Source: Polycladomyces zharkentensis
GTDB taxonomy: Bacteria; Bacillota; Bacilli; Thermoactinomycetales; JIR-001
DNA length: 64,000 nt
Reading direction: 5' to 3'
Assembly (NCBI RefSeq): GCF_016938855.1
Contig: NZ_JAFHAP010000008.1
Location: forward strand, 124,280-188,279
Both the position numbers and the translations under genes were made by a program. The notes under the pieces were generated by a model. It worked only from the letters and a program-made list of their open reading frames with translations. It was not told the origin of the DNA and did no database searches. Below, piece by piece: positions 25,961 through 37,440 of the stretch (its first letter is position 1; every line of letters begins with the position of its first letter).

Positions 25961-26181
25961 TCACCGGAGTGTGTCTGGTGAATATTGTCCACACCAGGTT
26001 CGCTTCACCTTCGCCCTGCCGGGAAGCGGATGATGCTTGCTCCGACCCGGAGCGCGGGTCGCGGGCAAAGTACGCTTCGCTAAGAAAAAGTTGCCCGCGA
26101 TTTCATCCCTGCGATCCCGGTCTTCGCTCGGCCGGGCTTGGTTGGTCGCTCACCTGGGAAAACATTTGCTCCCTCGCGGAT
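25961..26181. other. Intergenic stretch between amt and the IS relic
   Basis: No gene is recognised. A 10-bp perfect inverted repeat (TCGCGGGCAA at 26059-26068 and TTGCCCGCGA at 26091-26100) is the only clear structure. It lacks a T tract and may be a weak amt terminator. Confidence 0.4.
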
Positions 26182-26662
26182 TTACAGAAAAAGCCGTCTG
26201 AAAGCCCACGGCGACCATAGGAAGTACCCTAGGGGTATTTGAATCGTGGGATGAAAGGCGGAGTTGCTCGGTATCCCCTTTTGGGGATGGTAAGAGCAAC
26301 CAATTTGTTGTATAATCGAACGTATGAGCGGTGCTCATCCACTGGTAGTGGGCATGTTCCTGTGTACGTCATGGTATGAGGTTCCAGTGGCGAACAAATC
26401 TCTCCCACTGGGTAAAACCATGAGAGTGAGGCAAAAAGAACTAGCGTACTGGTAATACCACGGGCACTTCCGTTGGTCGCAGGTACGCCGCCCATGTGGG
26501 TACATGTGCCCGGTGGCGCAGAACCATATGGGACGGGGTGATGACACCCCCCTAGCTTGAGGGTTGCCCGAAACAGAAATGGACTGAGGGCGCTAACCAC
26601 TCAAGAATCCCACGGCGACCATAGGGAGTGCCTGTGGTACTTTAGCCGTGTGGAGTGTCAAC
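26182..26662 (+). mobile_element. Relic of an IS200/IS605-type right end with an omega-RNA-like non-coding segment
   Basis: The last 54 bp (26609-26662) form an imperfect palindrome ending in GTGTCAAC, which recurs at 37402-37440 with about 36 of 39 bases identical. A core of 24 bp starting CCCACGGCGACCATAGG occurs twice in direct orientation (26205-26228 and 26609-26632), 404 bp apart. The first copy is preceded by TTTACAGAAAAAG, which also precedes the 37.4-kb copy and looks like the last codons of a tnpB-type gene. The 380 bp between the cores is rich in short hairpins, has no credible protein frame, and resembles the guide-RNA scaffold region at the 3' end of such elements. No tnpA or tnpB is present. 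Confidence 0.55.
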
Positions 26663-26711
26663 AGACACGCTCTCATACAAAAATTCAGAGGTCACCACAT
26701 CACAGGCACAA

Positions 26712-36214: not shown

Positions 36215-37396
36215 ATGTTGGCCGTACATTTTGGAGCAGGCAATATCGGGAGAGGATTTATCGGCGCCTTGCTGGCACAGTCCAGATACGAAGTATGTTT
36301 CATTGACATCAACGATGCGCTGGTCGAAGCGTTAAACCATAAGCAGTCGTATCGCCTCGTAAAAGCGGGAGAGACACGAGAAGAATCAGAGATCGATCAC
36401 GTCTGGGCGATCAATAGCCGGACGGACAGAGAAAAGGTCGTGGCGACGATTGCGCGCGCTGATCTGGTGACAACGGCCGTGGGGGCAAATGTGCTGCCAC
36501 TGATCGCGGATCTCATCGCTGAGGGCCTGCAAAAAAGGATCAGTGAAACGGAAAAACCGCTGAACGTCATCGCATGCGAAAACATGATTGCCGCCAGTTC
36601 TCTCCTGCGGGAAAACGTGTACAAACACGTGACGGAACAAGAAAAAGGGGTGTTTGCGCAGCGTTTCGGATTTCCTGACGCCGCTGTCGACTGCATCGTC
36701 CCCAACCAGACGCATGACGATCCTCTCACTGTCGCTGTCGAGCCTTATCACGAATGGATCGTTGATGGAACCAAGGTCAAGGGGGAACTGCCACCTGTAC
36801 GGGGCATGAAATGCGTGGACGATTTAACCCCCTATCTGGAGAGGAAATTGTACACTGTAAATACGGGTCATGCGATCACTGCTTACCTGGGATATGCCTG
36901 TGGGTATCCCACGATCAAAGCAGCGATCGACGATCCGTTTATCAGGGAAATTGTGCAAAAGGCCCTTGGTGAGACGGGATCGTTACTCATCGATAAATAT
37001 GGCTTTGCTCCTGAAGAGCATGCCGCCTATATCACAAAGATCATTGACCGTTTCCAAAATCCGTATATCTCTGATGATGTGACGCGCGTTGCCCGCTCGC
37101 CGATTCGCAAACTCGGAGCGAACGATCGCTTGGTCGGCCCTGCCCGCCAGCTGCTTGCCCGGGGACAGAAACCGGAAAACCTGGCGCTCGGCATCGCTGC
37201 CGCTTTGGCTTATGACTATGAAGGTGACAATGAAGCGGTACAATTGCAGCAGACGATCGCCCGTACAGGAATCGATGGTGCCCTTTGTGAATACGCTGGC
37301 CTTTCCCGGGAAGACGAACTCGTACAGCTGGTCTTGGAACAGGGACGCCGGTTAAAGGAAGTTTTACAGAAAAAGTCGCCAGAAAGCCTAAGGTGA
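36215..37396 (+). CDS. mtlD: Mannitol-1-phosphate 5-dehydrogenase
   Basis: Oxidises mannitol 1-phosphate to fructose 6-phosphate with NAD+. The 393-residue protein has the Rossmann motif HFGAGNIGRGFIG at residues 5-17, a polyol-dehydrogenase core (VDCIVPNQ, KLYTVNTGHAITAYLGY with the catalytic Lys/Asn/His helix) and normal length up to about residue 380. The last ten codons (LQKKSPESLR) coincide with sequence shared with the IS relic at 26.2 kb. The natural 3' end appears to have been replaced by insertion-element DNA, adding a short foreign tail without obvious damage to the fold. Confidence 0.93.
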   Translation: MLAVHFGAGNIGRGFIGALLAQSRYEVCFIDINDALVEALNHKQSYRLVKAGETREESEIDHVWAINSRTDREKVVATIARADLVTTAVGANVLPLIADLIAEGLQKRISETEKPLNVIACENMIAASSLLRENVYKHVTEQEKGVFAQRFGFPDAAVDCIVPNQTHDDPLTVAVEPYHEWIVDGTKVKGELPPVRGMKCVDDLTPYLERKLYTVNTGHAITAYLGYACGYPTIKAAIDDPFIREIVQKALGETGSLLIDKYGFAPEEHAAYITKIIDRFQNPYISDDVTRVARSPIRKLGANDRLVGPARQLLARGQKPENLALGIAAALAYDYEGDNEAVQLQQTIARTGIDGALCEYAGLSREDELVQLVLEQGRRLKEVLQKKSPESLR

Positions 37397-37440
37397 CCAT
37401 CGTGAGTGTCTGTGGTACTTTAGCCGTGTGAAGTGTCAAC
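37363..37440 (+). mobile_element. IS200/IS605-type right-end relic fused to mtlD
   Basis: It starts with TTTACAGAAAAAG inside mtlD and ends in the palindrome and GTGTCAAC terminus shared with 26624-26662 (about 36 of 39 bases). Compared with the 26-kb copy it lacks the 404-bp middle segment. Orientation is the same, so the two relics form direct repeats around the dhaKLM-mannosidase-mtl block. Confidence 0.55.

Follow-up and report, generated by a model that had tools for sequence, protein, structure and literature searches.

Positions 26182 to 26662 of a 64,000-nucleotide stretch of the Polycladomyces zharkentensis genome (the window; coordinates refer to it, on the forward strand unless stated otherwise) hold a hairpin-rich segment that raises the question of what a guide-like RNA might be doing in an element with no protein gene of its own. 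A first-pass annotation of the sequence had placed here a 404-bp unit inside the right end of an IS200/IS605-type element, and had suggested an omega-RNA scaffold left without its TnpB nuclease, a tandem RNA unit or a small passenger element. The explanation we favor, with a probability of about 0.75 on the sequence comparisons described below, is that the segment is a satellite of IS605 elements that carries its own omega-RNA, is moved by TnpA and is maintained by TnpB in trans. Its sole product would be an RNA of ~340 nt composed of a 5′ structured domain, here called R1, and an omega-RNA that takes the flanking DNA as its guide; the use in trans and the role of R1 are the parts of this reading that we infer.

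Boundaries of the mobile unit and its insertion next to TTAC

The mobile unit spans 476 bp (26186–26661), with TTAC on its 5′ side and TCAA as its 3′ end. A search of the P. zharkentensis genome yielded 53 BLAST pieces representing about 25 copies, many of them decayed or truncated. Near-full copies of 480 bp align end to end with 26181–26661 and have unrelated flanks, and full-length copies elsewhere are at most 99% identical. In intact copies, AGAAA or a similar sequence comes after TTAC (or a variant), and the last bases are TCAA. Most copies have TTAC itself, and empty sites in congeners reveal no target duplication. For example, congener G001 lacks the element at the window site, where it reads GCTCCCTCGCGGATTTAC^CCGACACTC. 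Uninterrupted congener sites were also found for copies L061, L062 and L005, with a rougher one for L006. Because the ends are shared, the flanks are unrelated and the congener sites are empty, the unit can be placed at 26186–26661, inserted 3′ of TTAC without duplication. The tetranucleotide itself (26182–26185), the presumed TAM, stays outside the element, as indicated by a left boundary that is conserved across copies and by the empty site in G001 (GGATTTAC^CCGACAC).

The left end contains two hairpins, GCCGTCTGAAAGCCCACGG ... TCGTGGGATGAAAGGCGG (26193–26261), kept in standalone and tnpB-bearing copies, and GTTGCTC ... GAGCAAC (26263–26300), kept in the family. Subterminal hairpins at both ends are common to relatives that carry tnpA and tnpB (L121 and L119) and to L080. 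The right end of IS608 is itself TCAA, as in the present element. The two also have their target in common, which for IS608 is TTAC (PMC8612924). No credible tnpB ORF was found within the element. By these sequence features, the segment is a complete non-autonomous IS200/IS605 (IS608-like) mobile element without tnpA or tnpB. The similarity to IS200/IS605-type ends seen by the first-pass annotation holds up, since the ends match those of TnpB-type elements. Its 404-bp figure is likewise correct as a repeat spacing, but the whole unit is 476 bp long with left and right ends of its own. A passenger element was thus a sound suggestion as far as non-autonomous mobility goes, although with other boundaries, and a tandem RNA unit is not supported.

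The 404-bp spacing is the start-to-start distance between two copies of a 27-bp direct repeat that are 89% identical (26202–26228 and 26606–26632). Recombination between these left and right repeats would delete exactly 404 bp and leave forms of 76 bp (480 − 404 = 76). Copy comparison reveals such a compact derivative at 37364–37439, in which a left-end arm is fused to the right end between TTAC and TCAA, and the same form occurs at L066 (2819–2894) and L088 (1141–1216). The compact relic that had been noted at mtlD is this 76-bp copy, equivalent to the element minus one repeat-to-repeat deletion. The repeats had also been described as direct copies of a 24-bp core. The repeat is real, but the "core" is a palindromic micro-insert of 24 or 26 bp, CGACCAYAGGRAGTGCCYGTGGTA, that sits in hairpin loops and has a third, inverted copy. 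The 26-bp form lies in the left-end loop (26212–26237), where the insert length is 0 or 26 in most parsable copies. A 24-bp form lies in the right-end hairpin loop (26616–26639), where the right-end length is about 20 or 44 among copies. The inverted 24-bp copy (26456–26479, reverse strand) occupies the loop of the first omega-RNA hairpin and is missing in L004 and in the tnpB-linked L080 and L119. The left-end and right-end lengths come from a pattern-based table used for these two alone, its matches in the omega-RNA loop being wrong.

Most copies either have the micro-insert in full, at precisely 24 or 26 bp, or lack it altogether; of the orthologous insertions L080 and L101, the latter carries one in its left-end loop and the former does not. 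The micro-insert occupies two further places in the L037/L130 copy, and right ends belonging to other TnpB families contain it as well, with 61 matches in the P. zharkentensis genome versus 0 for a reversed control, and it is present in 11 of the 42 genomes of the order. It behaves like a very small mobile hairpin. Several IS605-type RNAs have it in their loops and junctions, in both orientations (in the window and in L037, L130, L146–L162 and L205–L234).

The omega-RNA scaffold and the R1 domain

Folded as RNA, the segment (349 nt) reaches −149.7 kcal/mol, with z = −4.9 relative to shuffles, in agreement with the many local hairpins noted earlier. Its 3′ half (26444–26661), which comprises a scaffold and the right-end hairpin, is common to standalone and tnpB-linked copies. 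In a mixed alignment of both kinds (n = 14), standard pairs fill 98.0% of the base-pair cells, and both sides have changed in 75 cells, compared with 24 in shuffles and 1–4 when the pairing partner is slid. A pseudoknot joins GACAC in a loop (26543–26547) to GTGTC (26655–26659), which adjoins AA and the guide. The two strands covary in register, swapping jointly to GAGAC/GTCTC (counts 12/0/0/17, p = 2e-8, related copies not being independent). Sequence, covariation, the pseudoknot and homology to tnpB-linked copies together identify the 3′ half as a TnpB-type omega-RNA with a Cas12-type pseudoknot.

Established models do not recover this RNA: Rfam searches at the gathering score (window, L080, L294 and L295) and at relaxed thresholds gave no credible match, including to the HEARO and IS605 RNA families. 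Our scaffold covariance model (R2) matches standalone and tnpB-linked copies, and in the window it aligns to 26470–26661 with 127.5 bits (E = 6e-32). The earlier suggestion of an omega-RNA scaffold without TnpB is therefore close for the 3′ half, but the segment is not a single leftover: it is one member of a conserved family of many copies, which have a further RNA domain that tnpB-bearing copies lack.

The extra domain, R1, is about 120–135 nt long, lies upstream of the scaffold and occupies the place of tnpA–tnpB. In the window it spans 26324–26442 and forms five helices; the R1 covariance model matches 26315–26449 with 147.9 bits. Covariation again supports the structure, with 93.7% of cells paired and 48 double-change cells, versus 15 in shuffles and at most 11 with slid partners. 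R1 occurs in standalone copies only and was missing at all 13 of the tnpB-linked loci scanned; the matches within L119, L129 and L247 represent separate standalone copies nearby. Wherever both models were run, R1 stands immediately 5′ of the scaffold, except in truncated copies such as L102. This comparison of loci shows that R1 and tnpB are mutually exclusive and that R1 is fused to an omega-RNA. A TATAAT-like −10 box just 5′ of the RNA (26311–26316) is conserved among 29 copies listed together; a strict consensus scan for promoters and terminators gave no match and no consensus −35.

R1 does not resemble anything we could find in the resources consulted. Two divergent copies (window and L133) gave no credible Rfam match to R1 at gathering or relaxed E-values, phage and viral sequence collections left it unmatched, and no description was found in the literature searched, most of it open access. 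Stops interrupt all six frames of R1 in most copies, consistent with the earlier statement that the segment holds no credible protein. We also considered a remnant of tnpA or tnpB and rejected it, as nucleotide similarity to autonomous interiors is at chance level and translated matches are short and chance-like.

Most likely, R1 takes over the role that tnpB mRNA otherwise plays on the 5′ side of the omega-RNA, by supplying its own promoter, 5′ stability or processing, or TnpB capture. We further propose, tentatively and at slightly less than even odds, that R1 plus omega-RNA constitutes a class of chimeric RNA in Bacillota that has not been described before. R1 would be its dedicated module (a promoter-proximal stabilizer, a TnpB recruiter or a processing signal) and would enable an element without protein to use TnpB retention in trans. 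Both the type of guide RNA and the type of element are familiar. In the resources searched, whose literature was mostly open access, we found no conserved omega-RNA element that lacks protein genes and includes an additional RNA domain.

Relatives with tnpB and distribution of the family

Copies of tnpB with matching ends had been named as something to look for, and relatives bearing tnpA or tnpB do share the scaffold and ends. In L121 (G018) and L119 (G029), these left and right ends enclose tnpA and tnpB, and L080, in the P. zharkentensis genome, and its orthologue L101 in G001 carry a full-length tnpB with a tnpA remnant. The latter two (L080, 4110–5162) place a full-length tnpB at one locus in two species with tnpA deleted. 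Between their tnpB genes, 7 codons differ synonymously and 5 non-synonymously, which hints weakly at purifying selection on tnpB. The TnpB protein P0001 (351 aa) has Pfam matches to OrfB_IS605 and Cas12f1-like_TNB, and its alignment with solved Cas12f/TnpB chains takes in the RuvC and zinc-ribbon motifs. Because these chains are the best matches of the TnpB clade, the scaffold may serve guide design.

R1 has 25 matches in the P. zharkentensis genome, where a single TnpB of this clade (351 aa) is full length. Y1 TnpA is present there only as fragments, which makes present mobility in this genome doubtful. Its copies were probably mobilized at an earlier time, or else by a TnpA that is not in the assembly. 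By covariance model, R1 with omega-RNA occurs in 19 of the 42 genomes of the order, and R1 in one more among the rest of 399 genomes sampled from the class; a pattern scan gives the carriers as Shimazuella, Thermoflavimicrobium and Paenactinomyces. A related TnpB (E below 1e-30 and at least 65% identity, fragments counted) is found in 15 of the 19 R1-positive genomes versus 2 of the 23 R1-negative ones (Fisher p = 4e-6, with genomes taken as independent of phylogeny). The R1-positive genomes without a close TnpB are G016, G017, G022 and G025.

Much diverged R1 and omega-RNA also occur together, without an adjacent tnpB, on plasmids of Bacillus subtilis and B. velezensis and on one plasmid of B. 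carboniphilus. The B. velezensis plasmid with a standalone copy has a full tnpA–tnpB element elsewhere. Inspection by eye of the B. carboniphilus copy shows that its two inner helices still pair, with both partners altered in most of their base pairs. The pair counts given above leave out these plasmid copies, in which alignment A3 had placed one helix one column off. The standalone elements on the plasmids (L295, 2155–2630; L297; L296, 1920–2335) are unannotated.

How the element may persist

A satellite maintained in trans could operate as follows. Transcription would start just after the TATAAT box at 26311, and TnpA of a related element would peel and paste the satellite, while a related TnpB would load the satellite omega-RNA in trans. 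TnpB could then cut the empty donor site, recognized as TTAC plus guide, and repair from a sister copy would restore the element. If this is true, TnpB/omega-RNA systems have protein-free satellites that carry their own guide RNA and rely on a shared nuclease. Guides per nuclease could then exceed estimates based on tnpB counts, since the P. zharkentensis genome has about 25 matches to R1 for a single full-length related TnpB. R1 also raises the question of what an omega-RNA needs at its 5′ end when it is not cut from a tnpB mRNA.

Alternatively, the DNA ends alone might matter for TnpA, as in a passive MITE-like element, in which case the internal RNA would be a silent relic of an old omega-RNA together with unrelated filler. 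The MITE-like spread and decayed copies, the ends-only forms of 76 bp at three loci and the negative consensus promoter scan are all in keeping with this possibility. However, internal helices distant from the ends show compensatory changes in different genera and on the Bacillus plasmids, the register of the pseudoknot is perfectly kept, and passive filler would not be expected to retain R1. We therefore regard a passive element as unlikely.

TnpB-derived RNA-guided repressors exist in general, and a full-length TnpB is present in this genome, so that single copies might have been retained to guide TnpB, or a dead homologue, in the regulation of neighbors such as amt/dha, as the first-pass annotation had proposed. 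This is very improbable, because the guide is merely the flank of the insertion site and, with its TAM, matches only its own site within the 64-kb window. Moreover, a congener has an empty site, copies lie at unrelated loci and the full-length TnpB retains its RuvC motifs. Slightly less probable still is an IStron or other self-splicing intron with a ribozyme as the 5′ domain: IStrons do join structured RNA to an IS605- or IS607-type element and can lose both ORFs (PMC4227781), but here a guide-RNA scaffold is fused instead, R1 is only about 120–135 nt, and Rfam searches with two divergent copies (window and L133), even at relaxed E-values, returned nothing credible, group I and group II introns included.

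The satellite that we propose has several partial counterparts. It resembles ISDra2 in its right-end omega-RNA, its guide in the flank and its stems and pseudoknot (PMC8612924, PMC10097598); the pseudoknot near the guide is described as a conserved feature of every Cas12 guide RNA (PMC10097598). Unlike IS608 and ISDra2, it lacks tnpA and tnpB, its scaffold is preceded by R1, and no tnpB 3′ end overlaps this scaffold. Non-autonomous elements that keep only IS605-type ends and are mobilized in trans are familiar as PATEs or IS200/IS605 MITEs. The present element is likewise non-autonomous with IS605-type ends, but differs by its conserved internal covarying omega-RNA and R1. Stand-alone IscB omega-RNAs, such as those of Ktedonobacter racemifer, are guide RNAs without an adjacent nuclease gene that are presumed to be used in trans. 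In this they are alike, although the IscB/HEARO scaffold is unrelated, and we know of no R1-like fusion among them. The term palindrome-associated transposable elements (PATEs) occurs in PMC3119063.

By homology to the ISDra2 reRNA (PMC8612924), the presumed guide would be the flanking DNA at 26662–26681. The host site is nested in another dispersed repeat, about 215 bp long, and lies ~12 bp from the right terminus of that repeat, whose other copies run uninterrupted through the junction. Because the insertion lies so near that terminus, the guide begins in the repeat and runs on into unique DNA. The repeat (25966–26185 plus about 26662–26673) has dozens of copies in the genus and apparent inverted termini, GTGTCTGGT...ACCAGACAC. 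Elsewhere in the window, a c-di-AMP (ydaO/yuaA) riboswitch (Rfam RF00379, 100.6 bits) lies at 2235–2403 on the reverse strand.
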